A DNA stretch of 64,000 bases. It comes from Candidatus Methanoperedens sp. Its GTDB lineage: Archaea > Halobacteriota > Methanosarcinia > Methanosarcinales > Methanoperedenaceae. The position numbers and the translations under genes were made by a program. Each line of letters opens with the position of its first letter. Positions within the stretch are counted from its first letter, which is position 1. The DNA lies in contig JAPMTR010000065.1 in NCBI GenBank assembly GCA_026552975.1, positions 1 to 64,000 of the forward strand, written 5' to 3'. The notes under the pieces are model-generated. The model did no database searches. It was not told the DNA's origin and saw only the letters and a list, made by a program, of their open reading frames with translations. This document shows positions 13,346 through 44,486 of this stretch, in pieces.

Positions 13346-14488
13346 TCATTTGGATCCTTTGTTCAAAGATTTCAGTTTTTCCTGGATAGCACTCTTTTCA
13401 TCCTCATATTCTTCATCCAGAAGCTCTCCTGATTTATATCTTGTTTCAAGTTCCTGTAATTTCAGACCCAATTCCTTCCTTCGGGGATCTATCCGGGCAT
13501 CGCTGTCCCCTTTTGATCCTTCAGATCCAGCCGCTTTATTACCTGAGTTTGTTCTTTCTGATTTTGCTTTGCCAGCATAAGAGCTGGAGGTTACTTTTAA
13601 TGGTTTATTAGAGTCACCCTGTTTCAATTTTTTACTAATGTATGGATATAATAATACAGCCAAAATTAAAATTCCAATTACAATATATACAGCATAATTC
13701 GTTTTTCCTGCTGGAATTGCCGATGAACTTGCCGATGAACTTGCCGATGAACTTGCCGATGAACTTGATCTTTCAATGGTTATTTCCTTGAATTGTGGAT
13801 CATTTAACCTGATTATATCTCCGGCATCTGAGGGATCATCTGTCTGAAGTTGATTCCTGTTCTCATCAAATAATTTAATAGAACTTTCCTGGGGCTTTGT
13901 AATTTTTACCACGAGCGCCGGAAGACCGGGTTTTCCCATATACCTGTAATTTATAGTTGTGGGATAGGCCAATTTCTTTGAAAATGTTCCTGATGCTGCG
14001 CTCGGGGTGCCAACAATGTATTCAACGACATATAAAAGAGGCAATGCGCTGTTTTTTTCAACATATTCCTGCCAGCTTATTATATTTCCGCTCTTGTTGA
14101 ATTCAAGCGTTATCAATCCTCCGCCTGTCATCATCTCTGATTTACTTACTTTGATGTTCTCGCTGCCATCGGGAAGCCATGTCCGAAGAGTGCCATAATA
14201 ATCTTTATCTCCATTATTTCTGAAAATAAGAGTTTCCCTGATGAACAATTTCTTTTCGGCCTGGAGCTGCACTGAATCATATTCGATGAGATGCTGCGCC
14301 ATTATGATATCCTGGTCTGAATCAGTGGCATTTGCAATGTCCTGTGGTTTCTGGATAGGGGTTTCCGGGGGAAGAATATTATTTGTATTTGTAGTTGTAC
14401 CTGCGCCCATTCCTGCAAACGCATAGACAGTGTTTATTAATAAGACGATCAGAAATATTGAGATCAAATATTTTTTTAATAGATTCAT
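13346..14488 (-). CDS. Secreted, C-terminally anchored protein with Ser/Ala repeat
   Basis: A 380-residue protein. Residues 1-25 form a signal peptide (LISIFLIVLLINTVYAFAG). The ectodomain at about 45-235 is beta-rich (YDSVQLQAEKKLFIRETLIF) and is followed by a low-complexity SSSA repeat near 240-257. A membrane helix lies near 265-285, then a basic, charged cytoplasmic tail ends in a coiled coil (LQELETRYKSGELLDEEYE) that resembles SHOCT-like tails. It lies just downstream of the pilin-like operon on the same strand and may belong to it. I do not recognise the ectodomain. Confidence 0.65.
   Translation of the reverse strand: MNLLKKYLISIFLIVLLINTVYAFAGMGAGTTTNTNNILPPETPIQKPQDIANATDSDQDIIMAQHLIEYDSVQLQAEKKLFIRETLIFRNNGDKDYYGTLRTWLPDGSENIKVSKSEMMTGGGLITLEFNKSGNIISWQEYVEKNSALPLLYVVEYIVGTPSAASGTFSKKLAYPTTINYRYMGKPGLPALVVKITKPQESSIKLFDENRNQLQTDDPSDAGDIIRLNDPQFKEITIERSSSSASSSASSSASSSAIPAGKTNYAVYIVIGILILAVLLYPYISKKLKQGDSNKPLKVTSSSYAGKAKSERTNSGNKAAGSEGSKGDSDARIDPRRKELGLKLQELETRYKSGELLDEEYEDEKSAIQEKLKSLNKGSK
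13719..13766. repeat. 12-bp tandem repeat, four perfect copies
   Basis: GCCGATGAACTT is repeated four times head to tail, encoding the Ser/Ser/Ala/Ser stalk of the membrane protein on the minus strand. The copies are identical, which suggests recent expansion and a length-variable stalk. Confidence 0.95.
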
Positions 14489-14548: not shown

Positions 14549-15910
14549 CTATGAGAATCCAATATCGACCTCATGGTCAATTATGTGCAGATAATTAATG
14601 GTTGGTGGCATGATATCGTAATCGAGTACATAGATCGTACCGGTTGCATTAAAACCATCCCATTTATCACTCGTCTTGGCCCCCTGATAAATTGCAAAGG
14701 TACCATCAGAGCTTATAAGTTTCATATAATGTTGTATCAGAACATCGAGGGGTACTGGACCTACATTTCCAGGTTTTTTGTATGTACCATTGTAAAGTGG
14801 ATCATTTAACCACGTACCAGAATCCTGATTAGAATTATATGATGCATTGACACTTGAATTAAGAAAATCCACGAACATATTATTGTTAATTATCATAGGC
14901 TGACATGATTCCCACGACTCATTAAAACCGCCATCATTATACATAACAACTATTGCCACCCCCTCTGTGCCACCCCCACATTTTTTCTGAAGATTAAGAT
15001 GGAATATATCTGAATCTGATTTAGGAGCACGAAAGTCAATTTCCATATTAGGATCAACTTCGGAAAAATTGAATGCGAACTGGTTCAGGGGTGTTTCATC
15101 CGAAACATCCATTCCGATCACTTCGATAGGAACTTCCAGATATCCAAACTGGTCTGAAGGTTTTGAGTTAAATGATACGACCACTTCCTTTTTGTGATCA
15201 TTTACCAGGGGAACAACCCCTGTCCTTTCTTTTATATAACTACCCCAGGCCTGGTAATAATCGCTCTTTAATCTCACAATGATCTTTTTGCCATAAATAG
15301 GATTTTTAAACATCGGGTCTTCTGAAGTATTTGGATAGATCGTTCTGGGAGAAGATGATGTACTTGCAAGAACACTAATTACTCCTTTACCCCCAGCCCA
15401 ACCTGTACTATTTACCCTGAAAATAGGAAATGTCAGGGTTTCATCATTAGTATAAAACTCCGGGGGCGATAACATAAGCGTATCTCCTGATGGATACATC
15501 CTGAATATTCCCCCATTTTCAAATGCGATCTTATTCCCATTTAAATTATATTCGAGTACCCCCAGTTGATCATTAAATATATCGCCCGGCGTATTCATAG
15601 TGATATTGAGCCAGTTTTCACTGGTATTCTGTGCCTGCATGAATCCACCCCCCAGATCGATCTTTGTGACCTGTGAAGGGGATGAACCGAATGCGACATT
15701 ACTGACCCTTCCATCCAATGCCGTCAGTGCCAGGATCTGGGTTTCCATTGATGCTGTATCCTGGATATCCGATTGGATGGGATAGGCAATAACTAACAGG
15801 ATGCTTATACCCAATAATACGATAGCTACAAGAAAAATATATCCAACAGTCTCTGAAACAGCTTTTTCACAATATATAAATTTTCGTACATCGTCTTTCA
15901 TGTTAAGCAT
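14549..15910 (-). CDS. Pilin-like secreted protein, sixth gene of the operon
   Basis: A 453-residue protein. A polar N-terminus (KFIYCEKAVSETVG) runs into a hydrophobic helix at about 20-42 (YIFLVAIVLLGISILLVIAY), the pattern of archaeal type IV pilin N-domains (the AVS motif at the helix start). The rest is a large beta-rich, Gly/Asn/Thr-containing ectodomain with several N-glycosylation sequons and one Cys pair (KKCGGG and WESCQP). At over 400 residues it is far longer than a major pilin, so I infer a large minor pilin or pilus-tip adhesin. Its start overlaps the upstream gene's end by eight bases. Confidence 0.7.
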   Translation of the reverse strand: MLNMKDDVRKFIYCEKAVSETVGYIFLVAIVLLGISILLVIAYPIQSDIQDTASMETQILALTALDGRVSNVAFGSSPSQVTKIDLGGGFMQAQNTSENWLNITMNTPGDIFNDQLGVLEYNLNGNKIAFENGGIFRMYPSGDTLMLSPPEFYTNDETLTFPIFRVNSTGWAGGKGVISVLASTSSSPRTIYPNTSEDPMFKNPIYGKKIIVRLKSDYYQAWGSYIKERTGVVPLVNDHKKEVVVSFNSKPSDQFGYLEVPIEVIGMDVSDETPLNQFAFNFSEVDPNMEIDFRAPKSDSDIFHLNLQKKCGGGTEGVAIVVMYNDGGFNESWESCQPMIINNNMFVDFLNSSVNASYNSNQDSGTWLNDPLYNGTYKKPGNVGPVPLDVLIQHYMKLISSDGTFAIYQGAKTSDKWDGFNATGTIYVLDYDIMPPTINYLHIIDHEVDIGFS

Positions 15911-16622
15911 CCAGTATCTCTGTAATTATTTGATTACTGTCAATCATTATAGAATCTACAGTTAAATTTGATGTTACAGTAGTCCTTGAATCATTGACCA
16001 CAATATCCATTCCCCCAATGTCTTCCAGGTATTTTTTCCACCCCATATAATAACTGCTGTTTATTTCAACGGATACATTTCTATTCACCGCATTTACAGA
16101 GTTAATAGAAGTAGAATATAGTTTATTTTTTATCCTGATGTTCCCTTCTCCTCCTGTCCAGTAATCCCCTATTAATTCCATTACAGGTATAGTTGTGATG
16201 TTTCCGGGGGAAAAAGACGGATTAGACACCATTATAACAGCACCATTTGGATATTTTACCCAGACACCTGTGTTTTCATAAGCCAGTGTTCTATCTTCGA
16301 ATATATACTCTAAGGAACTGACATTATATTTTATTCCACCAATAGTAATGGTGCTTTTATGACCAATTGTAAGCGTCCCACCATAAATTTTCAATTCAGT
16401 TACTCTTATAGGCGCCCTTTCATATCCAACTTTATCGATGTTTTGTGAAAGATATATAAAGGTATTTTCCATTTCCTGGAAATGTGCATTTTTTTCGGAT
16501 TTCTCAAGAATGGGCGCGCCAGAATAATAGACAATAGCACTTGAGATCAATACGATACCAAGAGTCAGGACAAAACTGACAGATTCGGAAACCGCGCTTT
16601 CGGATTGAATAAAATTTTTCAA
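15903..16622 (-). CDS. Pilin-like secreted protein, TTG start
   Basis: A 239-residue protein reading KNFIQSESAVSESVSF and then a 20-residue hydrophobic helix (VLTLGIVLISSAIVYYSG), a type IV pilin-like N-terminus. I chose the TTG at 16622 because GAGG at 16626-16629 lies three bases before it, right after the upstream stop. The longer ATG start at 16688 would overlap the upstream gene by 59 bases and add residues (CSPWATEQQEQ) that do not fit a pilin leader. The ectodomain is beta-rich with sequons and resembles that of the next gene in segments such as AYENTGVWVKYPNGAVIMVSNP, so the two look like paralogues. Confidence 0.7.
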   Translation of the reverse strand: MKNFIQSESAVSESVSFVLTLGIVLISSAIVYYSGAPILEKSEKNAHFQEMENTFIYLSQNIDKVGYERAPIRVTELKIYGGTLTIGHKSTITIGGIKYNVSSLEYIFEDRTLAYENTGVWVKYPNGAVIMVSNPSFSPGNITTIPVMELIGDYWTGGEGNIRIKNKLYSTSINSVNAVNRNVSVEINSSYYMGWKKYLEDIGGMDIVVNDSRTTVTSNLTVDSIMIDSNQIITEILDA

Positions 16623-16629
16623 GTTCCTC

Positions 16630-18120
16630 CTAATATGATGCAATGAAACTAATTGTTCTTGTTGTTCCGTCGCCCAGGGCGAACACAATAGTAAAATTCT
16701 TTCCCACAGGATCGGTGGAAAATTTTATCTCCATATTTTTAAACGCAAGTTCTGCAGGATATGGACTTGCCCAGGTTAGTGGTACCCCTGAATCCTGGCT
16801 ACCACTCGGATTATAACTACCAGTGGATTTCCAGAAAGTAGAAGTATCAAACTTGACACTTTGGATCTTTCCTCCACTGTTCCATGAGATAGTTACCCCA
16901 TTTATTAATACTTGAACTGGATCATTAATGTTATCTTTGAGTTTAATGTTAAGAAAATAAGCATAATTACTCGGTTTATTTCCAGTACGTATTATTTGAG
17001 GTGCAGTTGTATCAATTTCAAGTTCACTTGATTGATTTGGAAGTGGAATAATTATAGTAAATAACCATTCTGCAAGAGTTAAATTGCTCTGCATATTCTT
17101 CGCCTGCAGGGTCACATTGTGTATTGTTTCACTCATGTCATTTGCTGGAACATATGTAATAGTGGTCAATTTTGAACTGGCATTATTGAACGTGGCATTG
17201 GCGGTCTGGGTCAAATTATCGACTTTTAAAATTATCGAGGAAAAATCAATTTCCCGATCATCGCTTATCCTGGCCTTAATTGTGGGTCTGAGTGATTCTG
17301 TTGATGACCCATTGGTCGGGGATATTATAGTGATTTCAGGAGGAAATGAAAATGGATTAAAGATTGTATAATTGCGAGTATCTGGTTTTGAATTTCCTGA
17401 CGCATCATAGGCAACGGCAGTAACGGAATAATAGCCATTCTCCATAGTTCTTGTATTCCATGTCCAGTTGTATGGAGATGAAGATGAATAAATCCACTCT
17501 TCGTTTACAAAATAATCAACATGTGTCACGCCTAGATCATCTCCCACTTCTATTATTATAGTGGTTATATTGTCGATTGTTGATTCAGCCGCGGGAGAAA
17601 TAATAGAGATAGTTGGTTTATAGAGGTTAGGAGGAGGAATAACTCCGCCATCCGAAAAGAAGAAAGTGCCTGAAGCCGAATCATATTCGATCCCATGTGA
17701 ATCATCGTTGCTATATATTGTGCTATTTTCTGCCAGGAGTATACTTGAGTCAACCGGAACCTCAACACTCACATATTTTCCAGTTGTTGATTCAAGATGG
17801 ATTATATTGTCCATAAATTTTATAGAATACGTATCATCAACAATTCTTTCCGGGATCCAGAAATAAGATCTTAACGATGTATATGATCCATGGGCATTGC
17901 TCATCCTTGCTTCCACGATCATATCTGTCATCTTTCTTGCTATCCCATTCCCTATGTTCATGAGTTGTTCCTCCATCAATAAATTACTCTGCTTCTGGTT
18001 AAGTCCCTGGAAAGAAAGAAATATCATCCCCATGAAAATTATGGATATACTAAAAAAAATGATGGTTTCTACTGCAACAGTAATTGCGGATTCATCCGTG
18101 ATCAATTTCTTTGGATTCAT
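16630..18120 (-). CDS. Pilin-like anchored protein with Ig-like repeats
   Basis: A 496-residue protein. The N-terminus DESAITVAVETIIFF continues into a hydrophobic helix at about 15-37 and then an amphipathic stretch typical of pilin-like proteins. The middle has two Ig-like repeats: PTISIISPAAESTI...VTHVDYFVNEEW...GYYSVTAVAYDASGN at about 168-255, and PEITIISPTNGS...SSIILKVDN at 262-350. A beta-rich C-terminal domain follows at about 375-496. Many Asn-X-Ser/Thr sequons suggest an extracellular, glycosylated product. It lies in the middle of the operon, seven bases after the upstream gene. Confidence 0.7.
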   Translation of the reverse strand: MNPKKLITDESAITVAVETIIFFSISIIFMGMIFLSFQGLNQKQSNLLMEEQLMNIGNGIARKMTDMIVEARMSNAHGSYTSLRSYFWIPERIVDDTYSIKFMDNIIHLESTTGKYVSVEVPVDSSILLAENSTIYSNDDSHGIEYDSASGTFFFSDGGVIPPPNLYKPTISIISPAAESTIDNITTIIIEVGDDLGVTHVDYFVNEEWIYSSSSPYNWTWNTRTMENGYYSVTAVAYDASGNSKPDTRNYTIFNPFSFPPEITIISPTNGSSTESLRPTIKARISDDREIDFSSIILKVDNLTQTANATFNNASSKLTTITYVPANDMSETIHNVTLQAKNMQSNLTLAEWLFTIIIPLPNQSSELEIDTTAPQIIRTGNKPSNYAYFLNIKLKDNINDPVQVLINGVTISWNSGGKIQSVKFDTSTFWKSTGSYNPSGSQDSGVPLTWASPYPAELAFKNMEIKFSTDPVGKNFTIVFALGDGTTRTISFIASY

Positions 18121-18127
18121 AGTGCCC

Positions 18128-19786
18128 TCAAATATTTACGCGGAATGTATCTTCAAATTTTACTTTACCATCGTTATATTTTATAGTAACAATTATATTT
18201 TCAGCTGATACAACTGTGACCGGTGTCAATCTCATAGAAGCTGCAAAGAATGTCTCAAATATGAGCCTCTCAGCATTTCCGGATCTATCGGATAGGTCAT
18301 GCCCTGCAATATAAGTGACAAGCCCATTTTCATAGGTTGCTTCCAGGTACATTAATTGGTATTCACTTACAGAATCTGAATTATAATCTCCATAAAGTGG
18401 AGTTCCATTAGAATATGTGGCAACACCAAGAATATTTGTTGAAGGATTTATTTGAATGCTATTATGTCGTAAAGAGAATGCCGGGGTTTTTCCGGTTGTA
18501 TTCCCAAAAATACCATCCATATTGTTTGCCTGAGCCAGTGGACTGTATGGCGCCCCGGGATCACTTAGGCCTGATAGAGGCAATGGGGGAAATGTGTTAT
18601 ATGTGTAAGTTCCATTGGCACGCGTACTGTTATCCACAAGTTTGATGAACATAGCCTCTTTAGGTACTTTATTCTGATTAGATTGGCTAATACCGATGAA
18701 ACCATACCAGGGTTTCGCTGCCCCTGAAGAAGAACCCTCTATAGCCCGATCCATAGTGTCCGCCCCCCAGCATTGCGCATGCAAAACTCCACCATCTGCA
18801 ACCCAATATACTATTTTATTTATTACCTCCTTTGGCTCATTGGTCATATCATGATGAGGAATTGTGAGTATATCGAATTGTGTGAGATTCCCGTTTAATA
18901 TCTCAGTATTTCCAAGAGCGGTATATGGAATCTCACCATCTGCATAGTACGTTTCCATTGGACCCAGATCAGTAATTGGATATACAGCGACTTTGGGGGG
19001 AAACACCATTTTTACTGACTTTGAATAATTGAAGTAGTTTGCAAGTTCATGTATTACAATGTTTTTGTTTTTTGCTTCTGAAATTATCATCTGCCTCTGG
19101 ATTTCAGTTATATCACTTTTCTCGATAAGGAAAGGTCCGCCAGAATAATTCCTGTAACCCGGATCAACTGACACATCGCTGGAGGCATTTTTATCTGTAT
19201 ATATCGTACTGTTAAAATTAGGGACACTTGAGTTAACTGCATTTTGGAGAATTGTCCATACAGGGATCTTGGTGCCACTAACTTGTCCATCCACGACCCT
19301 ATATATAAGCCCATATGTCTTCATAATCTGGGTCTGGTTTCCATCCATGGGAATAATTAGTGAACCATTACTGAAATTATTGGGTTTCCATTCGATATGA
19401 TATTTATTTACCGGAATGTTTATTGTTGTTTTGTTGAAGGATACATTGTTAATTATTATTTCGACAGATGCTCCTCGCGCCCCATAAAGATTAATTATAG
19501 TATTATTATATGAATTTATATATTTATAAAAATAAGCTTCGATCTGTTCGATATTATCTGTTTCACTTGCTGCAATAGCGTTGTGCGCAGCTTTTTTTAT
19601 CTCTGCCTCGGTCAACAATCTTATATCCCGCACCTGATGTTTTGATTCATCAAGCCCTGTTGTCGGCATATTTGTTGTTAAGATCATATTATTAAGGATA
19701 GCCGTGAAACTCACAACTTCTATAATTATCAAAAAGACCGTCAATAGCATGATCTGCCCCTTATCGTTATTTATTACATCCGCCAT
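18128..19786 (-). CDS. Large pilin-like anchored ectodomain protein
   Basis: A 552-residue protein. A short polar N-terminus (DVINNDKGQI) precedes a hydrophobic helix at about 11-33 (MLLTVFLIIIEVVSFTAILN). The ectodomain from about 60 has many sequons. Residues about 300-365 read FDILTIPHHDMTNEPKE, IVYWVADGGVLHAQCWGA, resembling a Rossmann-like class I glutamine-amidotransferase or DUF4159-type fold with a Cys at the elbow position, but I see no convincing catalytic His/Glu pair. Its start overlaps the upstream gene by 13 bases. It is the third gene of the pilin-like operon; function unknown. Confidence 0.65.
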   Translation of the reverse strand: MADVINNDKGQIMLLTVFLIIIEVVSFTAILNNMILTTNMPTTGLDESKHQVRDIRLLTEAEIKKAAHNAIAASETDNIEQIEAYFYKYINSYNNTIINLYGARGASVEIIINNVSFNKTTINIPVNKYHIEWKPNNFSNGSLIIPMDGNQTQIMKTYGLIYRVVDGQVSGTKIPVWTILQNAVNSSVPNFNSTIYTDKNASSDVSVDPGYRNYSGGPFLIEKSDITEIQRQMIISEAKNKNIVIHELANYFNYSKSVKMVFPPKVAVYPITDLGPMETYYADGEIPYTALGNTEILNGNLTQFDILTIPHHDMTNEPKEVINKIVYWVADGGVLHAQCWGADTMDRAIEGSSSGAAKPWYGFIGISQSNQNKVPKEAMFIKLVDNSTRANGTYTYNTFPPLPLSGLSDPGAPYSPLAQANNMDGIFGNTTGKTPAFSLRHNSIQINPSTNILGVATYSNGTPLYGDYNSDSVSEYQLMYLEATYENGLVTYIAGHDLSDRSGNAERLIFETFFAASMRLTPVTVVSAENIIVTIKYNDGKVKFEDTFRVNI

Positions 19787-20340
19787 AATGTCAGCCTCAC
19801 CTCTACAATATTCCAGATATCTGTTATTCCAGGGTCATTTTCAGTAATGATTAATTTATGATCCCAATTCAGATCATCATCATAAAAAACAATACTCCTT
19901 GAAACAATTACAGCATTATCCGAAGGTTTTCCATTCCATAGTATCGGTTTTAGGGAAATGCCAGTTGACGTGTTATAATATACTTCAAGATTATACACGA
20001 TCCCTGCATCCCCCAACACCTCTTTCAAATCGTTAGCCGTAATATTTGTTGGTCCGGCTGGAAGGGGGGACTGTCCTGAATACTGCACACCATTCCAGGA
20101 CGCTATTGCATCCTTGAGTTCTGAGTTCATGCCATCCTCAGGGATATAATCAAGGACAGTTAGCAGATCATGCCCCCTGGTTATGAGCGCAGACTCCGAC
20201 TGCTGGGTCGAGGAAAAAGAAGAATTTGGTGTCATTGGGGCAGCCTTAAGAATAAATATCACGACCAATACCAGAAGAAGTGCAGATGCGACTGCTTCCA
20301 TAGTGTATAATTGACCCTTCTCACTTCGTATCATAACCAT
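19774..20340 (-). CDS. Small pilin-like protein (DUF7288-like)
   Basis: A 188-residue protein whose N-terminus SEKGQLYTMEAVASALLLVL runs into a hydrophobic helix at about 12-33. The rest is a mixed ectodomain of about 150 residues. The arrangement (KGQ...T-hydrophobic) matches the small pilin-like proteins found next to DUF7287-like genes in haloarchaea, so the DUF7288 label is a comparison, not a proven match. It overlaps the first operon gene by 10 bases. Confidence 0.65.
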   Translation of the reverse strand: MVMIRSEKGQLYTMEAVASALLLVLVVIFILKAAPMTPNSSFSSTQQSESALITRGHDLLTVLDYIPEDGMNSELKDAIASWNGVQYSGQSPLPAGPTNITANDLKEVLGDAGIVYNLEVYYNTSTGISLKPILWNGKPSDNAVIVSRSIVFYDDDLNWDHKLIITENDPGITDIWNIVEVRLTLWRM

Positions 20341-20858
20341 ACTTTCACCACCAGAATTAATTTTTTTGAATCCTGTGGAAGGTAAACGATCCTGACTGAC
20401 TGCCCCATGTTGCTTGAACCATCAGGAATTGCCCCGCCAAGAAGTATAGGGTTGACCGGATCTGGATAAAGTGTGTTATTCAGGCATAGTAATGATACAT
20501 TGATATTATATTTCAGGGTACTTGTCAATAGCCCCAATTGATCCCTTCTTGATTCATATGTCACATTATTATTTAGATCGCTATTTAACTGAATTATTTT
20601 ATCTTTATCAACGATATTGGGGCTGGTATCACCGATAGCGACACCATTGGATGTTTCCACCAATACCGTGCTTATCCTGTCGGCCATGGATCTTGTTTCA
20701 TCAGAATTGAACTGGAATGGAAGAAGAAGGTTAGAGAGAACACTTAGAAGGAAAAAAAAAGCCAGGATAAATATGGAAACACCTATTACATAATCAAGAC
20801 TCATCTGACCCTTAATGTCAAGATTAAATCCAGCTGTCTCTATGCGCATAATTATCAT
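20331..20858 (-). CDS. Small pilin-like protein (DUF7287-like), first gene of operon
   Basis: A 175-residue protein with the N-terminus DIKGQMSLDYVIGVSIFI followed by a hydrophobic helix at about 20-45. KGQ-[MS]-x-[LD]-[DY] before the helix resembles class III signal peptides. The ectodomain (about 50-175) ends with LPQDSKKLILVVKVWL. It opens the six-gene minus-strand operon. The start may be the ATG at 20858 or the downstream one at 20849; a TATA box at about 20880-20889 would place the transcript start close to both. Confidence 0.65.
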   Translation of the reverse strand: MIIMRIETAGFNLDIKGQMSLDYVIGVSIFILAFFFLLSVLSNLLLPFQFNSDETRSMADRISTVLVETSNGVAIGDTSPNIVDKDKIIQLNSDLNNNVTYESRRDQLGLLTSTLKYNINVSLLCLNNTLYPDPVNPILLGGAIPDGSSNMGQSVRIVYLPQDSKKLILVVKVWL

Positions 20859-20950: not shown

Positions 20951-21514
20951 ATGGTCAGCTCTTCAAATAAGGTACTTTTGATCTCTTCCATCATCGCAGG
21001 GGTCATTGTTGTATTATTAGTATCAGTGACAGCATTACTATATTTCTCAGGTGAAAAACAAATCGATCCGGGCCTTGAAAGGTCTGTCAGGAATGAGTAT
21101 TCTGTTCCAGTCGATGTAAAAATAATCCAGACCCCAGATGGAAATATCGCCTATATTATTCCCGGTTCGGTCAGATGGGATGCAAGGCATGAAAAACTAT
21201 TATATAACCTGTCAGATCCCAGAGAAGCAACGCTTGCCATTGTCGAGACGTTTGCAAACCAGGATGTACAGGCGCTTGAAAATGTGACCTCCCAGGACAC
21301 ATTGAATGCCTGGATCAGGCAGGGTTACACGACAACTCGAATGATGGAGTTATATAGGGCAGACTTTAAGAATATTGATAAACCCTATAGATTTGAACTG
21401 GATCGAGGTGAAGATGATCCGGCAGAAGACAGATTGTCTGTAAGAATTATAAGAGAAATGGATGAATTACATCTGGAGATCAATAAACAAATAGATGGGA
21501 AATGGAAAATATGA
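20951..21514 (+). CDS. N-terminally anchored protein of unknown function
   Basis: A 187-residue protein with one membrane helix at about 8-31 (VLLISSIIAGVIVVLLVSVTAL) and a soluble domain of about 150 residues facing outside. The segment IAYIIPGSVRWDARHEKLLYNLSDP and later LAIVETFANQDVQALENVTSQDT resemble no family I can name. Its stop overlaps the likely rubrerythrin start (ATGA), so the two are co-translated. Confidence 0.6.
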   Translation: MVSSSNKVLLISSIIAGVIVVLLVSVTALLYFSGEKQIDPGLERSVRNEYSVPVDVKIIQTPDGNIAYIIPGSVRWDARHEKLLYNLSDPREATLAIVETFANQDVQALENVTSQDTLNAWIRQGYTTTRMMELYRADFKNIDKPYRFELDRGEDDPAEDRLSVRIIREMDELHLEINKQIDGKWKI

Positions 21515-34096: not shown

Positions 34097-34585
34097 TTAT
34101 ATCTTTTTAATTCCATTAAATGCGCTTTTTACTGACATTACGCCTGTTGCGATATTGAATTCAATAGTCCTGCCATAATTTGCTCCAGTATCGCTTGCAA
34201 GTAATGGGATATTCATTTCTTTCAGTTTCTGTTTTACGGCCAGGACATTTCTTTCCCCGATACTCATGGTACTTTTTCCAAAACTGAACATACTTGCGCC
34301 CCCGGCGATCTTGGATTCCATTTTCCTTTTTAAACAACCTTTCTCGATAAGGCTATCAACTAATATTTCGATCGCAGAGTCAGCGAATTTTAAAGGGATC
34401 TCCTTTTTATTCGATTCCTGGATGCTTGGAAGAAGTATGTGTGCCAGGCCGCCGAATTTTGCTTCAGGATCGCGAATAGAGATCCCTACACAGGAACCAA
34501 GACCAATGGTCACAAGGACAGCAGGGTTTCGGACTACTGCATAGTCCGCTATTCCTATGATCACTCTTTCCACAGTAACTTCCAT
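34097..34585 (-). CDS. cheD: CheD chemoreceptor glutamine deamidase
   Basis: A 162-residue deamidase converting receptor Gln to Glu and a partner of CheC. Catalytic Cys is in TIGLGSCVGISIRDP near 29-43 and the His in FGGLAHILLPS near 48-58; the C-terminal RTIEFNIATGVMSVKS carries the third site region. It is the last gene of the cheY-B-A-R-C-D operon, 11 bases after cheC. Confidence 0.93.
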   Translation of the reverse strand: MEVTVERVIIGIADYAVVRNPAVLVTIGLGSCVGISIRDPEAKFGGLAHILLPSIQESNKKEIPLKFADSAIEILVDSLIEKGCLKRKMESKIAGGASMFSFGKSTMSIGERNVLAVKQKLKEMNIPLLASDTGANYGRTIEFNIATGVMSVKSAFNGIKKI

Positions 34586-34596
34586 ATTATTTCCTT

Positions 34597-35208
34597 TTAA
34601 ACCATCCTGTTGATCGCATCAAGCATGAACCTTAATGAATCTGAGTCTGTGAATATCAAAATATTACCATCCACTTGTTCTTCATTGATAAAAAATTCTG
34701 TCTTAAGGAACAAAACATCATTTACATCCGCACCCATAAAACCCAGTACCTGGTCGATTATCGCATCTGACATATCGTATGCCTGGGATGGAGTAGAGCT
34801 GCTTATCGATATTGAAAGGAAATTTGATAAAGAGCTGATGTATGTGCCCCCCATGATATTTGCCATTTCCTTAAGAACAGATACTTCCATTTCATCAAAT
34901 CCCTGTGTTTCATCGGATTGCCCATATATTAATTTGATCAATGTCTTTGCTGTCCTTTTTGATAGCAACAACATCATAAATCCATTAGCTTCGCCTGTAA
35001 GCTGAAGTATTATTCCAACGACCGGGTCTTCATTTCTTACCAGAGCAGGCACATCCAATAATGGAATAAGCTTCATATCAGGAAGAGATACCCCCACCTT
35101 TTTATTTACCATCTTAGACAGGGAAGTCGTTGCATGTCCTATCCCGATATTACCCACTTCTTTTAAGGCATCCTTTTGAAAATCCGTAAGAGTTCTTATA
35201 TTTTTCAT
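34597..35208 (-). CDS. cheC: CheC-type CheY-P phosphatase
   Basis: A 203-residue phosphatase that dephosphorylates CheY-P and can bind CheD. Both active-site helices with the E-x2-N pattern are kept: LKEVGNIGIGHATTSLSKMV near 14-32 and LKEMANIMGGTYISSLSNFL near 110-130. It overlaps cheR by four bases (ATGA). Confidence 0.93.
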   Translation of the reverse strand: MKNIRTLTDFQKDALKEVGNIGIGHATTSLSKMVNKKVGVSLPDMKLIPLLDVPALVRNEDPVVGIILQLTGEANGFMMLLLSKRTAKTLIKLIYGQSDETQGFDEMEVSVLKEMANIMGGTYISSLSNFLSISISSSTPSQAYDMSDAIIDQVLGFMGADVNDVLFLKTEFFINEEQVDGNILIFTDSDSLRFMLDAINRMV

Positions 35209-36050
35209 GATCCGCCTTTCTTCATGTATATTCTTTCTCTCAGGTCAACAGTTTTAAACATGTGTCCTGCCGGCCCTACAAGTGATTCAGTCTTTCCCAT
35301 GACAAAGTATCCCCCTTCATTTAAAGCATTATAGAAATCCTGGTACAGAATTTCCTGTAATTTGTGTTCAAAATATATTGTGACATTCCTGCAGAATATC
35401 AGGTCAAAACCTCCTAATTTCGGGCCTGAGATCATATCATGATGTTTTATTTTGAAAATTTTGCGCAGTTCGTCATCCAATATATAACCGATACCATCCT
35501 TAACAAAAAACCGATCCAATCGTTCCTTGCTTAACTTTTCGATCTGTTTTTGGTCAAATGCCAACTTTTCTGCCTTTAAAAGACAATCGTCGTCGATATC
35601 AGTACACAGGATGGAGATATTATACTTCTTGTAAGATATACCGAGGAATTCTCTCAGTATTATCGCAATGGAACTTGCTTCTTCCCCATTTGAACACCCT
35701 GCGCTCCAGATCTTTAACATCCTGTTATCTCCTTTGGTTTTTATCAGTTCAGGAAGCACGTTCATCCTGACAAATTCATACATTTCAGGATTCCTGAACA
35801 ATTCCGTGACGTTTACGGTTAATGCTTCTTTTAACTGTGTTAGTTCTTCAGGGTTTTTTAAAAGCAGACCAGAATATTCGTTATAGGATCTTGATCTTGT
35901 GATCCTAAGTCTTAAAGCCAGGCGTCTCTTCAGGTGTGTCTGTTTGTAGCTTTCACAATTAAATCCTATTTTTCTTTTAATGATCTTCTTCAATTCAGTA
36001 AATTCATTTTCATCTTCACATATTTCATTTGACTGAATTGATCCTATCAT
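35205..36050 (-). CDS. cheR: CheR receptor methyltransferase
   Basis: A 281-residue SAM-dependent methyltransferase adding methyl groups to receptor glutamates. N-terminal helical domain at about 12-85 and SAM-binding domain from about 95: LKIWSAGCSNGEEASSIAI near 116-135, ILCTDIDDDCLLKA near 150 and DLIFCRNVTIYFE near 218. Overlaps cheA and cheC by four bases each. Confidence 0.93.
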   Translation of the reverse strand: MIGSIQSNEICEDENEFTELKKIIKRKIGFNCESYKQTHLKRRLALRLRITRSRSYNEYSGLLLKNPEELTQLKEALTVNVTELFRNPEMYEFVRMNVLPELIKTKGDNRMLKIWSAGCSNGEEASSIAIILREFLGISYKKYNISILCTDIDDDCLLKAEKLAFDQKQIEKLSKERLDRFFVKDGIGYILDDELRKIFKIKHHDMISGPKLGGFDLIFCRNVTIYFEHKLQEILYQDFYNALNEGGYFVMGKTESLVGPAGHMFKTVDLRERIYMKKGGS

Positions 36051-37999
36051 AATAATGTCCCTACATCAATTATCAATGCCACGTTGCCATCCCCCATTAT
36101 TGTGGCGCCTGCAAATCCTTTCATACCTTTTAACATATTATTGTCCAGGTTCTTGATAATGACATCCTGTTGCCCTATGACCTGGTCAACTACAAGACCA
36201 ACATTGTTTCCCGACCGTTCTACCACCACAACCAGAAGGTCTTCATGATCATCGCATTTAATATCAAAAAGCTTATGCATCCGCACCAGGGGAATGACTT
36301 CTCCCCTCATTAAGATGACTTCTTCACCTTTTATTGTCTTTATTTCCTCTTTTTTTATTAACAGATCTCTTATAACATTGGTGATCGGGATCGCATATAT
36401 CTCAGTTCCTACTTTTATCATCAGTGATTGTATGATCGCAACGGTCAGAGGAAGCTTGAGTTTGATCGTTGTTCCTTTTCCCGCAATAGAATCAAGTTTA
36501 ATTGAGCCCCCCATCTGGCCGATCTTAGTCCTGACAACATCCATTCCAACTCCGCGCCCTGAAACATCTGTCACTTTCTCAGCAGTACTAAAACCCGGCA
36601 GGAATGAGAGGTTTATGGCTTCAATATCCGAGATTTTGTTTACCTCCTCCAGAGACATTAACCCTTTCTTTACAGCAGATTCCCTGATCTTTTGAGGATC
36701 CATTCCTTTTCCATCATCAGACACCTCAATGACCACATTATTCTTTTCACGTCTTGCAGTCAGTTTGATCATGCCCTTTATATTCTTACCATTTTGTTTG
36801 CGGACATGAGGAGATTCTATCCCATGATCCACGCAATTTCTCAGGATATGCACAAGCGGGTCCCCGATCTCATCCAGAACGGTCCGGTCAAGTTCAATTT
36901 CCCCACCTTCCAGAATAATATCAATATCCTTCTCCTCTTTTTTTGCAAGATCCCTGACCATTCTGGGAAACCTGTTGAATATCTGTTCGATAGGCACCAT
37001 TCTTGAGGCTATGATCTCATCCTGGAGGTCATTCGTGAGGCGGTTAAGACTTGTAAGAGTCTCCTCGAGCGCATCCAATTTATACGTCTTTGCAAGCTGC
37101 ATTAATCGGATCTTGTTAATTATAAGTTCACCTACAAGGTTCATCAATGAATCCAGACGTTCGATGCTAACACGAACACTTTGAACACTCTTTATAGAGG
37201 TCTTGTTGCTATCATTCACAGATGTTTTTTCCTGGGATTTTATCTGTGCCCTTTTACCAATATGGGTTTTCACTTCTACATTTGATATCTCAATTACTTT
37301 CTTAGCAGCCTCTTCTAATTTTTTTGCATCTTCCTTCGTAGAAATAATTACCGTGAATTCATGATCAAAGTTTTCATCTTCAAGGTCTTTGACCGGCGGG
37401 ATGGTATCAAGTATTTCTCCAAGTTCAGACAGGTTTCGCATTACAACAGTTGACCTGGATGACTTGAGCATGCAGGATTCATGAAGCGTGACCGATACTT
37501 GAAATACATTGCTTCCGTATGGTTTGGGATCAGAAGTGTTTTCAATTGAAGAAGTGTTTTCAATTGAAGAAGTATTTTCGATCAAAGGTGCAGGATCTTT
37601 CTTAATTATGACTTCTGCAGTTTTTTCAGCTTTTGGTTCAGTTATTTTTGCTATAATGATGGAAATGTCAAATTCAGAGGATTTTTCAGGATTTTCTACC
37701 ATTTTTTCAAGAGTATCGAGGCATTCAAAAAGAAGATCAATATAAGAGGATTCGAGTTTTAGTTCATTATTGCGCACCCTGTCCATCAGGTTTTCCATAT
37801 TATGGGTGAGCTCTTTTATATTGGTATAACCCATAGTGGCAGACATGCCTTTTAAAGTATGGGCTCCCCTGAACATCACATTTATCGTTTCGCTATCATT
37901 CGGATCTTTCTCAAGACTCAAAAGTGCCTTATTCATTGATTGAAGGTGTTCTGCAGATTCAACCGCATATATTTCCTTATATTCAGACATGTCATCCAT
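36047..37999 (-). CDS. cheA: CheA chemotaxis histidine kinase
   Basis: A 650-residue kinase with the classical five regions. P1 (HPt) at about 1-105 with the phospho-His in MFRGAHTLKGMSATMGY near residue 48. A repetitive IENTSS linker near 139-155, P2-like beta region at 160-250, P3 dimerisation at about 270-335, P4 ATPase at 340-510 (HILRNCVDHGIE, SDDGKGMD, GRGVGMDVVR) and P5 CheW-like at 515-650. It takes signals from the MCP through CheW and phosphorylates CheY and CheB. Confidence 0.95.
   Translation of the reverse strand: MDDMSEYKEIYAVESAEHLQSMNKALLSLEKDPNDSETINVMFRGAHTLKGMSATMGYTNIKELTHNMENLMDRVRNNELKLESSYIDLLFECLDTLEKMVENPEKSSEFDISIIIAKITEPKAEKTAEVIIKKDPAPLIENTSSIENTSSIENTSDPKPYGSNVFQVSVTLHESCMLKSSRSTVVMRNLSELGEILDTIPPVKDLEDENFDHEFTVIISTKEDAKKLEEAAKKVIEISNVEVKTHIGKRAQIKSQEKTSVNDSNKTSIKSVQSVRVSIERLDSLMNLVGELIINKIRLMQLAKTYKLDALEETLTSLNRLTNDLQDEIIASRMVPIEQIFNRFPRMVRDLAKKEEKDIDIILEGGEIELDRTVLDEIGDPLVHILRNCVDHGIESPHVRKQNGKNIKGMIKLTARREKNNVVIEVSDDGKGMDPQKIRESAVKKGLMSLEEVNKISDIEAINLSFLPGFSTAEKVTDVSGRGVGMDVVRTKIGQMGGSIKLDSIAGKGTTIKLKLPLTVAIIQSLMIKVGTEIYAIPITNVIRDLLIKKEEIKTIKGEEVILMRGEVIPLVRMHKLFDIKCDDHEDLLVVVVERSGNNVGLVVDQVIGQQDVIIKNLDNNMLKGMKGFAGATIMGDGNVALIIDVGTLL
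37533..37586. repeat. 18-bp tandem repeat in cheA linker
   Basis: Three head-to-tail 18-bp units beginning GAAGTGTTTTCAATTGAA encode three IENTSS-type units in the linker after the HPt domain of CheA. The third copy has diverged at a few positions. Copy number may vary between strains and alter linker length. Confidence 0.9.
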
Positions 38000-38011
38000 A
38001 ATTACACCTTT

Positions 38012-39064
38012 TTAGGCAATTTCCGTTATGATCCGGGCAATTTCGTGTACAGGCAAAATATAGTCTGCCAGTTTTTGTTCTATCACTGACCTTGGCATTC
38101 CATATACCACGCATGTAGATTCATCTTCAGCTATCACTTTTCCACCCGCCTGCTTAAGTTTCCTGATTCCACAGGTACCATCCGACCCCATTCCCGTTAG
38201 AATTATTCCAATTGAATCCTGGCCATATATTTTCACAGCCGACCCCAGAAGAACATCAACAGAAGGCCGTACTCCCTGTACTTTTTCACCTTTTGTAAGT
38301 CCTATCACCTCTTTGATCTCACCATCTATCTTTTGCTGCTTTACGATCATATGAAAATCCCCGGGTGCGACGAAAACTGATCCTATCTGGATAATGTCAC
38401 CATCTGCCGCTTCCCTGACCCTCAACATAGATTGGGAATCTAGCCTGTCTGCAAGGGATTTTGTGAATCCTGCGGGCATATGCTGAACGATCAGTACTGG
38501 AACCTGAAGGTTTGAAGGTAAAAGAGGTATTATATGATTCAATGCCCTTGGACCGCCTGTGCTTGACCCTATTATTATTATCTTTCTTGCTCCTGTTCTT
38601 GCAGGATAAACGGTCTTCTCCTTTTTGACCACTTTTTCTTCTATGAAACCAAGCTTTCTGACTTCAACACGAGCTGCAGCTGTTATTTTCCTTATCAGGT
38701 CATCCCTGATCTTTTCCATGTCAAGGCTTATATTTCCAGAAGGTTTTTGAATGAAATCAACTGCACCATACTGAAAAGCAGTCATTGTCAGATCCCCCTG
38801 GTCAGATTCTGCCCCTGTAAGCATTATTACACGGGTAGGGCACTCGCTCATTATAAAACCCAGCGCCTGCAAACCATTAAGAACTGGCATTTCTATGTCC
38901 ATAGTCACTACATCAGGTCGAAGGAGGGTTATTTTCTCTATCGCTTCTTGCCCGTTCTTTGCAGTCCCCAGAACTTCTATATCGGGTGATCCGGACAGAA
39001 TATTACTGATGACTTTACGCATAAAAGCAGAATCATCAACGATAAGTACTTTTATTCTGGACAT
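38012..39064 (-). CDS. cheB: CheB receptor methylesterase
   Basis: A 350-residue protein with an N-terminal receiver (VLIVDDSAFMRK, VVTMDIEMPVLNG, VIMLTGAE, FIQKPSG) and a C-terminal methylesterase. The catalytic triad regions are GSSTGGPRALNHIIP near 168 (Ser), QHMPAGFTKSLADRL near 195 (His) and GMGSDGTCGIR near 291 (Asp). It removes receptor methyl esters when phosphorylated by CheA. Spaced 12 bases from cheA and cheY genes. Confidence 0.95.
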   Translation of the reverse strand: MSRIKVLIVDDSAFMRKVISNILSGSPDIEVLGTAKNGQEAIEKITLLRPDVVTMDIEMPVLNGLQALGFIMSECPTRVIMLTGAESDQGDLTMTAFQYGAVDFIQKPSGNISLDMEKIRDDLIRKITAAARVEVRKLGFIEEKVVKKEKTVYPARTGARKIIIIGSSTGGPRALNHIIPLLPSNLQVPVLIVQHMPAGFTKSLADRLDSQSMLRVREAADGDIIQIGSVFVAPGDFHMIVKQQKIDGEIKEVIGLTKGEKVQGVRPSVDVLLGSAVKIYGQDSIGIILTGMGSDGTCGIRKLKQAGGKVIAEDESTCVVYGMPRSVIEQKLADYILPVHEIARIITEIA

Positions 39065-39076
39065 AAGAAATAAACA

Positions 39077-39433
39077 TTACATGTTTTTAGAAACTGCTTC
39101 TAATACTCTTTCAGCATCAAACGGCTTGATTATAAAATCCCTTGCCCCGATCTTTATGGCGTCATTGACAACGGTCTTTTGCCCTATTGAACTGCACATT
39201 ATAACTCTGGCATTCCTGTCATGTGCAATTATCTGTTTTAAACATTCGATCCCATCCATGCTTGGCATTATGATATCCAGAAGTACGAGATTCGGTCTAT
39301 GTTCCTTATATTTTGCCACACCATCTGAACCATCCACTGCCTCCAGAACTTCATTTCCAGTCGGGACAATGATCTTTTTTAACATCAGTCTCATGAATGC
39401 TGCATCATCTACAAGCAATATTTTCCCAGCCAT
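39077..39433 (-). CDS. cheY: Chemotaxis response regulator CheY
   Basis: A 118-residue single receiver. Acid pocket ILLVDDAAFMR, acceptor Asp in LVLLDIIMP, Ser in VIMCSSIG and Lys in FIIKPFD are canonical. I chose the ATG at 39433 (MAGKILLVDD) because GGAGG at 39438-39442 stands four bases before it; the upstream in-frame ATG at 39448 would overlap that site. First gene of the che operon, placed just downstream of arlJ. Confidence 0.94.
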   Translation of the reverse strand: MAGKILLVDDAAFMRLMLKKIIVPTGNEVLEAVDGSDGVAKYKEHRPNLVLLDIIMPSMDGIECLKQIIAHDRNARVIMCSSIGQKTVVNDAIKIGARDFIIKPFDAERVLEAVSKNM

Positions 39434-39509
39434 TTTTCCTCCAAGCAATATAATTTTAATGTGTTAATATTTAAAATATAATTGATCATCTATACATGTT
39501 AATTCCAGC

Positions 39510-39533
39510 CACACCTCTATAAATAAAGGTGTG
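39510..39533. promoter_or_regulatory. Stem-loop between arlJ and cheY
   Basis: CACACCT (39510-39516) and AGGTGTG (39527-39533) form a perfect 7-bp inverted repeat with a 10-base AT-rich loop. It lies 24 bases after the arlJ stop on the minus strand and upstream of a TATA-like ATATTTTAAATA for cheY. There is no T-run after it, so it may be an operator or mRNA processing site rather than an intrinsic terminator. Confidence 0.5.
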
Positions 39534-39556
39534 ATCGTTGTGTGAATTTACAAAAA

Positions 39557-41209
39557 TCACATTCCCAATATTGGTCCCATACCTCTTATCGTAAGTTCTG
39601 CGGTCAGCGCCGATACCCAGACAAGTCCCACAAAATGGGTATATGTGTTAAAATGGTGACCGCCGTCAACGACCCTGATAAGTATAGAAGAGATCAGGGA
39701 ATGACAGACCATCATCACCATTAACATTGAAGTCATCAAAGGAATATTGGCGTTACCTACTGCTGCCAGCGATATCCCTATGTCAGCATCCGGAAGTGAC
39801 ATATTTGAAAATATTTTTGCAAGCATCGCTATTATTGCCAGTGACAGGAAAAGGGTCGCAGCTATTCCCCCGGTGATCCCATATAGTACGCCTATAAGAC
39901 TTGAGGCGCTGCTGTACCTCAATTTCCTCATTGAAAGGATCGACATGAAATTCTTGCTTATGATATCCCCGATAAGTGCAGGTTTTCCACCCACGTTCGT
40001 TCCTTCCACGAACATCGTTGCGAAGCGTTCTATCAGGTTGCTCCCAGTTCCTGCTGCAAAATGTTCCCAGGATCTTGGGGTATTGAGCCTTGTTTTTAGT
40101 CTTTTATAAAGGCTATTCACATTCCCCGAAAGAGGCCCAAAATCATGTGCGGTCAATTCTTTTAAAGATTCCAGGATAAGCCCGCTTCTTGACCCTGCCG
40201 CGCCTCCAAGAGAGCGTATGAATGAACTGAAATTATTATCATACCTCTTTATTTTATCTTCTTCAACACGCGCTATTAATCCGGTCAACAAAAGGGGGGT
40301 CAGGGAGAGCGCGAACATGATCGGGATAGGGATATCGTTAATTAAAAGCATAAGCCCTGTCACCATCATACAAAGAAACAGAGAGATAGGCATTGACCAT
40401 TTTAGTCTCCGGTCGGCAACGGTCTCTATATTCAACGTATGCCATATCCTGTCAGCCGGCACTTTTGATCTTGCAAATAATAACAATACCAGTTCCGTTA
40501 TTACAAATACAGCGATCGCACCTCCAAGGAGCAATGTTGAATCAATACCTGTAATAATTGGCATGATTATTGCAAAAGCCACAATAAAAATAAGGGACAT
40601 GCACATAGAGACGAACAATTCTTTGATCATAGTTATGGAATTCAAGGAATCCTGGTACATTGTCATGAAATCATTCATGACAACAGTCTGCTCAGAAAGA
40701 ACAAAATCCTCAAAAGCCTGTCCTGCCTGCATTGAATGCGCAAGCCTGTCCAGAAAGTCCTGGAACAGAACAGAAGGCGTCCTGTTGGCTATGAATCTGC
40801 ATGCCACAGGAAAACTTACATGCCAGTAGATCACCAGGGCATATATTCTTCCCGTTTCTTTAGCCAGGTAACCATATGCTTCAGTATGTGAAAGCTTCTC
40901 CAGCATGTCGATCCTTGTCATCTGTGAAGTCGCAAGGACCCCCATGTGGGTTATGAAATAATGCATATTGTTATCAATTTCTTTCTTTTTGTTTTCAAGA
41001 CTTGATAAAGGGTATATGAGAACTATAGAAACCAGAGCAAGCGGGACTAATATGATCCCGACGATCATAGCGCCCTGAACAACTGATGGAATAAGGATCA
41101 GAATTAAGATTGGGAACATTAAAGCCATTATCACTGCCGGGACAACAAATTTTTTTACATAATTTTGTTGTGACATTCCAAGGCAGTGAAATATGACCTT
41201 TGAATTCAT
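39557..41209 (-). CDS. arlJ: Archaellum membrane platform protein ArlJ
   Basis: A 550-residue multi-helix membrane protein of the TadC/PilC family, the platform on which ArlI drives archaellum assembly and rotation. Helix pairs lie at about 20-65, 195-250, 270-320 and 440-540. The cytosolic regions include the conserved TGSNLIERFATMFVEGTNVGGKPALIGDII near 385-415. It is the last gene of arlB-F-G-H-I-J; three bases separate it from arlI. Confidence 0.93.
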   Translation of the reverse strand: MNSKVIFHCLGMSQQNYVKKFVVPAVIMALMFPILILILIPSVVQGAMIVGIILVPLALVSIVLIYPLSSLENKKKEIDNNMHYFITHMGVLATSQMTRIDMLEKLSHTEAYGYLAKETGRIYALVIYWHVSFPVACRFIANRTPSVLFQDFLDRLAHSMQAGQAFEDFVLSEQTVVMNDFMTMYQDSLNSITMIKELFVSMCMSLIFIVAFAIIMPIITGIDSTLLLGGAIAVFVITELVLLLFARSKVPADRIWHTLNIETVADRRLKWSMPISLFLCMMVTGLMLLINDIPIPIMFALSLTPLLLTGLIARVEEDKIKRYDNNFSSFIRSLGGAAGSRSGLILESLKELTAHDFGPLSGNVNSLYKRLKTRLNTPRSWEHFAAGTGSNLIERFATMFVEGTNVGGKPALIGDIISKNFMSILSMRKLRYSSASSLIGVLYGITGGIAATLFLSLAIIAMLAKIFSNMSLPDADIGISLAAVGNANIPLMTSMLMVMMVCHSLISSILIRVVDGGHHFNTYTHFVGLVWVSALTAELTIRGMGPILGM

Positions 41210-41212
41210 GAT

Positions 41213-42844
41213 TCATACCTCAAATGGTATCCCTTCAAGACCCCGGTCCTGATAAGCCCATATCAGGTCCCGAACTTTGTAATAATCAAGGATATTTTCT
41301 TCGACCATCCTGGTAAGGATCTTTGCGCGCAATGCAAGTTCGTCATAAATCATGCGCTTATCGTCGTATCCCTGTTTCGCAGCTATCTTATCCAGGATAA
41401 AACTATTGTTCAGCCCCCTGAAACGATGCCTGTCGTTCGTAAAATCCCATTCAAAAACCGCACGGGTTATGACGCCTCCTGCTTCTTCCAGGTATCCTTC
41501 GATCTCATCCACAGAAGTGCATCGCCGCAAATATTTCCCTTTCCTGTAAATAGCCTGGAGGATCAAAGCCGCATTTAGGTTATCGGCAAATGTCGGTGGG
41601 ATATTGATAGGTGCGCCTGTAAGACGCTGGAGAAGTTTCTTTACTGACGAAGCGTGAAATGTTGCAAGAACAGCATGTCCTGTCTGCATGGCCTGGAAAG
41701 CCACAGCGCCTTCAGCGCCCCTGATCTCACCCACTATGATGTAATTTGGTCTTGACCGCAGGGCAACTTTCAGGAGTGTGAATGTGTCTACCTGAGATTC
41801 TATCGGGCCATCTGTTCGCGTTATCAACTGCTGCCAAGCCGGCTGCGGCGGAAGCACTTCAGCCGTATCTTCTACAGTGTACATTTTTGATTTGCTGCTG
41901 ATAAATGGCAGGGCAGCATTGAGCATGGTCGTTTTTCCGCTTGCGGTCTCACCACTGAAGAAAATACTCATCTGGTTCTCAAGCAAAAGCCACAGGTATG
42001 CACACAGATTAGCGTCAACACTTCCCCATTTTATAAGCTGCGGAATACTTGCGGGTGTTTCCATGAATTTCCTCATGGTAAAACTGGAACCTCGTTTGCT
42101 GACATCAGTGCTATAAATTGCCGCGATCCTTGTACCATCAGGAAGTGACCCGTCAATTATGGGACGTGCATCACTTACCGGCCGTCCGATGCGTTCACCC
42201 ATGGTATGAAGCCAGTGGCTTAAGTTATCCGCAGTGCCAAAGGTGAGATTTGTCGTAAGCATTGCCAGGATCTTATGTACAATGAAAACACCGCTTACTC
42301 CTATGCTATGAACGTCTTCAAGATATGGGTCCCTGATCAACGGTTCTATCGGACCCTGGCCAATTACATCCCGATCTATGAAATATGATATTTTGTCATA
42401 TTCCAGCTGGGATAAGGGAATAAGTTTTACCCCAAGAAGCCGGTCCAATATTCCGGTCGGCACAAAGCTGTTTTCCACATGGACGGATTCATTCAACAGC
42501 TTCATTATTAATTTTCTTAACTGGTCTTCATTCTCAGGAACACTTTCATCAGCGGCCTTTTCGAGGATTGAATCCATTATCTGTTTATATTTTATGGATT
42601 CCTCAGGTAATAAGATCGGTTCGATCGCAATATATGCGGTCTTTCTTGATACCTTATCACCCTTGAGGTGGATAAATATAGGATCACCTACCGGATAGAT
42701 CAGGTTCAGGACAGGGATATCTACGATCTCCCGGCCAATCTTGGCAACAAAATCCGGCATAACTCCGGTTTCTTTCTTGCATTTTGCTACGTATTCAGCC
42801 AGGTGCGGATTTCGTTTCATGGCTTCTTCGAACTTGTCATCCAT
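41213..42844 (-). CDS. arlI: Archaellum motor ATPase ArlI
   Basis: A 543-residue type II/IV secretion ATPase powering archaellin insertion and rotation. Walker A is FFSGETASGKTTMLNA near 290; the Asp box, Walker B and His box appear in MYTVEDTAEV, YIIVGEIRGAEGAVAFQAMQTGH and LATFHASSVKK near 320-400. The N-terminal domain ends with GQGPIEPLIRDPYLEDVH. Length and order fit ArlI, with arlH just upstream. Confidence 0.95.
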   Translation of the reverse strand: MDDKFEEAMKRNPHLAEYVAKCKKETGVMPDFVAKIGREIVDIPVLNLIYPVGDPIFIHLKGDKVSRKTAYIAIEPILLPEESIKYKQIMDSILEKAADESVPENEDQLRKLIMKLLNESVHVENSFVPTGILDRLLGVKLIPLSQLEYDKISYFIDRDVIGQGPIEPLIRDPYLEDVHSIGVSGVFIVHKILAMLTTNLTFGTADNLSHWLHTMGERIGRPVSDARPIIDGSLPDGTRIAAIYSTDVSKRGSSFTMRKFMETPASIPQLIKWGSVDANLCAYLWLLLENQMSIFFSGETASGKTTMLNAALPFISSKSKMYTVEDTAEVLPPQPAWQQLITRTDGPIESQVDTFTLLKVALRSRPNYIIVGEIRGAEGAVAFQAMQTGHAVLATFHASSVKKLLQRLTGAPINIPPTFADNLNAALILQAIYRKGKYLRRCTSVDEIEGYLEEAGGVITRAVFEWDFTNDRHRFRGLNNSFILDKIAAKQGYDDKRMIYDELALRAKILTRMVEENILDYYKVRDLIWAYQDRGLEGIPFEV

Positions 42845-42856
42845 AAGACCGCCTCT

Positions 42857-43549: not shown

Positions 43550-43559
43550 TTTTTAAGTC

Positions 43560-44003: not shown

Positions 44004-44012
44004 TTATATCTC

Positions 44013-44405: not shown

Positions 44406-44486
44406 ATGATCCCCCGCTTTTATGGATATTGTGGGACGTAACTATCTACTTTTTTTTTAAGAAATTTCAGGTTTACTTTCATATTC

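Follow-up and report, generated by a model that had tools for sequence, protein, structure and literature searches.

Which surface structure do six adjacent pilin-like genes of an uncultured methane-oxidizing archaeon build, and which machine assembles it? The genes come from contig C1 of genome G000, which among named organisms is closest to Candidatus Methanoperedens; the initial 64,000 nucleotides of this contig form the stretch called the window below. We first asked what the six genes encode, then where related gene sets occur and what they lie next to, and finally which of the genome's assembly machines would fit them.

Six adjacent genes encode predicted type IV pilins

The block consists of six consecutive minus-strand ORFs (14549–20858) that overlap or lie 7 bases apart, and each product is made up of a short polar leader with glycine, alanine or serine at −1, a single hydrophobic helix and an ectodomain of roughly 140–520 residues (Table 1), matching the layout given in a preliminary description of this DNA. 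That description also likened the leaders to those of archaeal type IV pilins. We therefore scanned for prepilin leaders with a rule of our own, which requires G/A/S at −1 with a charged residue immediately before it, bars lysine and arginine from the helix and asks for a hydrophobic stretch from +7 to +21. The rule-based scan agreed with the proposed likeness, detecting a leader site in all six block proteins compared with 2 of the 55 other non-overlapping ORFs of the window, one of which is the archaellin (44518–45084), and with 5 of 84 control ORFs elsewhere in the genome. The motif is kept in relatives, with Q at +1 in 34/36 and D or E at +5 in 36/36 sequences of subunit 1, Q at +1 and E at +6 in all 39 sequences of subunit 2, Q at +1 in 36/38 sequences of subunit 3 and mostly V at +1 in subunits 4–6. 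The second prepilin peptidase of M. maripaludis, EppA, acts on substrates with Q at +1 (PMC4371748).

A search of the window for assembly ATPases and platform proteins returned the archaellum pair and nothing else, as the preliminary description had said. Taken together, the leader counts, the retention of the motif in relatives and the archaellum pair being the sole pair in the window indicate that the block did not arise by chance, and the leader sequences identify its six products as predicted type IV pilins with class III leaders. A seventh gene downstream (13346–14488) encodes a protein with what looks like a cleavable Sec signal and with a helix at its C-terminus; as no relative was found in the other loci searched, and given the Sec-like signal, we left it out of the block.

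Table 1. Positions of the predicted pilin subunits and of associated features in the window
Feature	Position	Strand	Evidence or remark
Subunit 1, pilin-like DUF7287, 175 aa	20331–20858	−	Pfam DUF7287 E 1.3e-23; leader conservation; leader ...DIKG^QMSLDYVIG; Asp at +5
Subunit 2, pilin-like DUF7288, 188 aa	19774–20340	−	Pfam DUF7288 E 5e-33; leader EKG^QLYTMEA
Subunit 3, modular pilin-like, 552 aa	18128–19786	−	Leader DKG^QIMLLTV
Insert domain in subunit 3, ~260 residues (residues ~255–515)	approx. 18240–19022	−	Six-sequence profile
Subunit 4, modular pilin-like, 496 aa	16630–18120	−	DUF7266-like N-terminus and Ig-like (Big_7) domains
Subunit 5, pilin-like DUF7289, 248 aa	15903–16649	−	Pfam DUF7289 E 9.9e-22; leader ESA^VSESVSF
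Subunit 6, pilin-like DUF7289 + DUF7308, 453 aa	14549–15910	−	DUF7289 E 3e-21, DUF7308 E 3.6e-7; leader EKA^VSETVGY
Divergent single-helix protein beside the block, 187 aa, candidate member at most	20951–21514	+	Relatives adjoin long-variant blocks
Archaellum ATPase and platform genes	39557–42844 (41213–42844, 39557–41209)	−	T2SSE E 5.7e-37, T2SSF E 2.2e-11

Five of the six subunits have strong or weak matches to Pfam families of unknown function (DUF7287, DUF7288, DUF7266, DUF7289 and DUF7289 with DUF7308). Subunit 3 of the window has no Pfam match, and one orthologue (L116) shows a weak match to DUF7261. In subunit 4, Big_7 matches two stretches (E 1.9e-17), and DUF7266 falls under the cut-off for the window protein and over it for orthologues. 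The start of subunit 5 is uncertain, the ORF list placing a TTG at 16688. Structure prediction, from which the preliminary description had expected a pilin-type helix plus a beta domain, agreed weakly for subunit 2, whose low-confidence model (pLDDT 59, few input sequences) contains helices at 8–33 and 40–64 and four strands; the model of subunit 3, likewise built from few input sequences, reached a pLDDT of 37. Fold searches with these two models gave no usable match, including no PDB match for the subunit 2 model, and a PDB search with subunit 3 returned nothing significant. Heme motifs (CxxCH) were absent from the block-family proteins of twenty loci, giant subunits included.

The gene set is widespread and matches a known pilus type

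Of the 34 genomes of the family, 32 contain DUF7288, as do 262 of the 394 genomes sampled in the phylum. The preliminary description had named a conserved gene order as support, and Sec signal peptides in most of the six proteins or a lack of synteny as contrary signs. Neither contrary sign was found, and the order 1-2-3-4-5(-6) is kept in Methanoperedens, Methanosarcinaceae, haloarchaea and many other families. Among the haloarchaeal loci read, most have the block directly after PilB–TadC, as on pHME505 of Haloferax mediterranei, where the five genes are all annotated 'hypothetical protein', and four f8 genomes also have it linked to a PilB–TadC pair. Throughout the Methanosarcinales loci read, including this genome, the block is unlinked to PilB–TadC, and in closed Methanosarcinales genomes it lies about 27 kb to over 1 Mb from the best-matching TadC. 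The block is a set widespread in archaea that in this lineage lies apart from its assembly motor. The earlier proposal of a multi-subunit surface complex with a borrowed machine holds with regard to the pilin-like subunits, the conserved synteny and a machine encoded elsewhere in the genome, probably an unlinked PilB–TadC pair on contig C111 (see below). Rather than an orphan novelty, the block is a known set that lies beside PilB–TadC in haloarchaea.

Among published systems, the block fits the 'PilB4-type' type IV pilus of euryarchaeal clade 2, a prediction of Makarova et al. 2016 (PMC4858521), so that the kind of system is already known. In that system (Makarova, Koonin and Albers; H. volcanii pilB4-pilC4), several pilins are co-encoded beside PilB–TadC, as is the block in haloarchaea, a large haloarchaeal PilB with extra domains is a shared feature, and a duplicated, beta-rich pilin of 250–550 aa, arCOG02911, fits the DUF7289 subunits 5 and 6, an equivalence that we infer from length and context rather than from looked-up identity. 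The characteristic pilin set in its conserved order is present in this genome. Its adjacency to PilB–TadC is not, and the Methanoperedens set further differs in the large inserts of subunits 3 and 4. Since the 2016 paper allows for pilins encoded in trans, with ATPase/TadC modules evolving apart from pilin sets and able to act on pilins encoded elsewhere (PMC4858521), the missing linkage lowers the probability of membership in the PilB4 type without excluding it.

A second system for comparison is pil-2 of Halobacterium salinarum (PMC4292770), whose seven genes are transcribed together, among them those for PilB2 and PilC2 and three with predicted prepilin leaders. It differs in having a linked ATPase, probably of a different clade, and we read it as the clade 4C system of Makarova et al. 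The H. salinarum deletion that affected adhesion was in pil-1, not pil-2 (PMC4292770).

An unlinked PilB–TadC pair is the best candidate assembler

Besides the archaellum pair, the genome contains PilB–TadC pairs on contigs C111, C89 and C102; additional ATPase genes lie on C45 and C27. In ATPase trees, the archaellum ATPase is the outgroup, and we judged the archaellum pair not to be cognate to the block. The ATPase on C111 is of the non-archaellum type and belongs to a clade (98/92) that unites all sampled Methanoperedens, the sampled block-bearing Methanosarcinaceae and one block-bearing f13 genome, and that excludes both sampled Methanosarcina-type genomes, which are without the block. A careful ATPase tree did not join the C111 clade with support to block-linked ATPases.

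Complementarily, we compared the occurrence of C111-type TadC (at least 55% identity) and DUF7288 across 130 genomes of the order. Among the 88 good genomes (completeness at least 90%, contamination at most 5%), 63 contain TadC together with the block and 21 contain neither; the remaining 4 are discordant, three with the block only (G009, G210, G434) and one with TadC only (G031), some assemblies being fragmented. The counts are not independent, since most double absences (17 of 21) fall in Methanosarcina-like genera, and the corresponding Fisher p of 4e-16 takes no account of relatedness. In one genome (G016), the C111-type ATPase is the only non-archaellum pilus ATPase, leaving the archaellum as the sole alternative.

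The C111 pair is, on these sequence comparisons, the best candidate and the probable assembler, so that the search for unlinked ATPase/platform pairs suggested in the preliminary description ends in a named pair; its PilB reading frame runs off the contig end. The genome further holds one A24 prepilin peptidase candidate gene, on contig C92 and matched by both Pfam models, as well as stand-alone PilA-type pilins, one of which (137 aa) adjoins the C89 pair.

Subunits 3 and 4 carry large domains that vary between lineages

Alignment with short orthologues revealed that the long subunit 3 retains the pilin N-terminus and the last strand, which enclose an inserted ectodomain sequence of ~260 residues. 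A profile built from six insert sequences matched proteins in families f1, f3, f8 and f33, in each of them within subunit 3, and within subunit 2 at two f3 loci (L191 and L192). The profile yielded no Pfam match and no convincing PDB match. We noted a ThuA- or glutamine-amidotransferase-like look (GG-x-x-H-x-E-C), which is no more than an impression; Pfam and PDB searches gave nothing significant.

Two block lineages exist in Methanoperedens. Subunits 3 and 4 measure about 250 and about 155 aa in the short lineage, and 552–907 and 496–792 aa in the window and several relatives, the window's subunit 4 containing Ig domains. In the subunit 2 tree (97), the short-lineage block groups with Methanosarcinaceae, and the long one, comprising the window and a few relatives, with f3 genomes. 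One genome (G027) has both lineages back to back. Subunit 2, the DUF7288 pilin, is enlarged to 1511–1562 aa in three f38 genomes (L188, L189 and L190; same order), its two DUF7288 ends flanking a stretch of ~1300 residues, in which the one protein scanned (L188, 1511 aa) carries FG-GAP repeats (E 5e-29). Overall, the inserts sit between the N- and C-terminal parts of the pilin and differ by lineage. The hallmark of modular pilins, an extra domain in or on the pilin module, is seen in the subunit 3 insert and the subunit 4 Ig domains, and the new detail relative to the known system is the variant combining the two.

In bacteria, the HIJK tip complex (GspH-I-J-K, FimU-PilV-W-X) is likewise a small, co-encoded minor-pilin set with one member bearing a domain inserted in the pilin head, a likeness proposed at the level of the working principle, as a functional analogy. 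The insert-bearing block subunits also resemble GspK and ComZ, inserted-domain minor pilins thought or shown to lie at the tip. Streptococcus sanguinis PilB and PilC carry an adhesive module on a minor pilin at the tip, as proposed here, but their modules are C-terminal rather than inserted, are of other domain types and come from bacteria (PMC8179133, PMC9934059). By analogy to such bulky modular minor pilins, which are located at the tip (PMC8179133, PMC9934059), the large-domain subunits of the block would probably be found there as well.

A putative tip complex assembled in trans

We consider it the most probable reading, at roughly 0.65, that the six genes are the pilin set of a clade-2 PilB4-type pilus and act mainly as a minor-pilin tip complex, assembled by the C111 machine and bearing exchangeable adhesive heads. 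The prepilin peptidase, for which the C92 gene is the candidate, would cut the leaders off the six subunits, and PilB–TadC on C111 would assemble them in trans. In its main role, as a complex of minor pilins, the set would initiate the filament and remain at the tip; the backbone could be formed by a stand-alone PilA-type pilin or by one of the six subunits. The bulky domains inserted in subunits 3 and 4 would serve as heads for adhesion or ligand binding, and the likely role of the pilus would be attachment to surfaces or other cells. More tentatively, and at slightly less than even odds, the conserved Halobacteriota pilin set could be a tip platform on which large heads, such as the ~260-residue domain of subunit 3 or 2 and the FG-GAP propeller-type domain of subunit 2, are swapped between subunit positions, heads that could select partner cells or mineral surfaces in methane oxidizers.

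To our knowledge, little is known about archaeal tip complexes or about partner recognition in methanotrophic archaea. Under the tip-complex reading, six genes labelled 'hypothetical' become a pilus component of an uncultured methane oxidizer that has a name and can be tested, and the assembly pair expected to work with the six subunits is indicated. The reading also suggests an exchange of large surface domains among archaeal minor pilins, as in bacterial modular pilins.

The strongest alternative, although an unlikely one, is a complete dedicated pilus with one of the six, for instance subunit 4 or a DUF7289 protein, as the major backbone subunit. The published PilB4-type model has its own major pilin inside the set (Makarova et al. 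2016, PMC4858521), and the genes of the set are everywhere found together as one unit; subunits 3 and 4 of the long-lineage sizes given above, however, would be awkward in a helical backbone, and the genome has stand-alone PilA-type pilins, such as that beside the C89 pair. A type II secretion-like pseudopilus instead of an adhesion pilus, an option raised in the preliminary description, is not favored and seems improbable: a group of five or six pilins encoded together, one of them bulky and carrying an insert, does resemble the GspHIJK set, but the outer-membrane part is absent from archaea, no co-encoded secreted enzyme was seen, and the inserts are FG-GAP repeats and Ig-like domains, which are typical of adhesion. 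Still less credit goes to assembly of the block subunits by the archaellum ATPase and platform 20 kb off. These form the nearest machine in the window and the only other choice in G016, but the ATPase–TadC pairs adjoining the block in other loci read are of the non-archaellum type, and the two Methanosarcina-type genomes lacking the block do have archaellum-clade ATPases. Finally, ordinary membrane-anchored surface proteins forming no filament are very hard to reconcile with the conserved prepilin sites, the acidic residues inside the helix and the PilB–TadC linkage in other lineages, even though the structure predictions are too weak to prove a pilin fold.

Genes adjoining the block in the window and in other genomes

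Beside the block, a divergently transcribed gene encodes the single-helix protein listed in Table 1. It had no family match above the cut-off, and its relatives lie beside long-variant blocks in Methanoperedens (L015, L016/L089, L017/L093 and L090). Large proteins adjoin pilin blocks elsewhere too: a haloarchaeal locus (L206:6023-12826) encodes, between two pilin blocks, a 2267-aa protein with a subunit 4/5-like pilin-type N-terminus and CARDB repeats, and an f15 locus (L226:4309-7731) encodes, just upstream of the block, a protein of 1140 aa that combines Ig-like with von Willebrand A domains.

In four Methanosarcinaceae loci (L109:10969-14139, L110:10583-13318, L113:10892-13087 and L114:6915-8996), a protein of 693–1056 aa is encoded directly upstream of the pilin block. 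It has no predicted membrane helix, shows coiled-coil-like matches and ends in a C-terminal FlaD/E domain (Arch_fla_DE), hinting at an archaellum-like cytoplasmic part for the block's pilus. We had also tried PF04659 (archaellum FlaD/E) as a marker of archaellum absence and rejected it, as it has no match in Methanosarcina acetivorans despite archaellum loci; because of this failure, and because the domain adjoins the block in some genomes, PF04659 decides nothing on archaellum-less block genomes. The FlaD/E-domain genes of the present genome lie on other contigs (C118 and C12), and in the window the archaellum genes adjoin a chemotaxis cluster of CheD, CheC, CheR, CheA and CheB (34097–45084).
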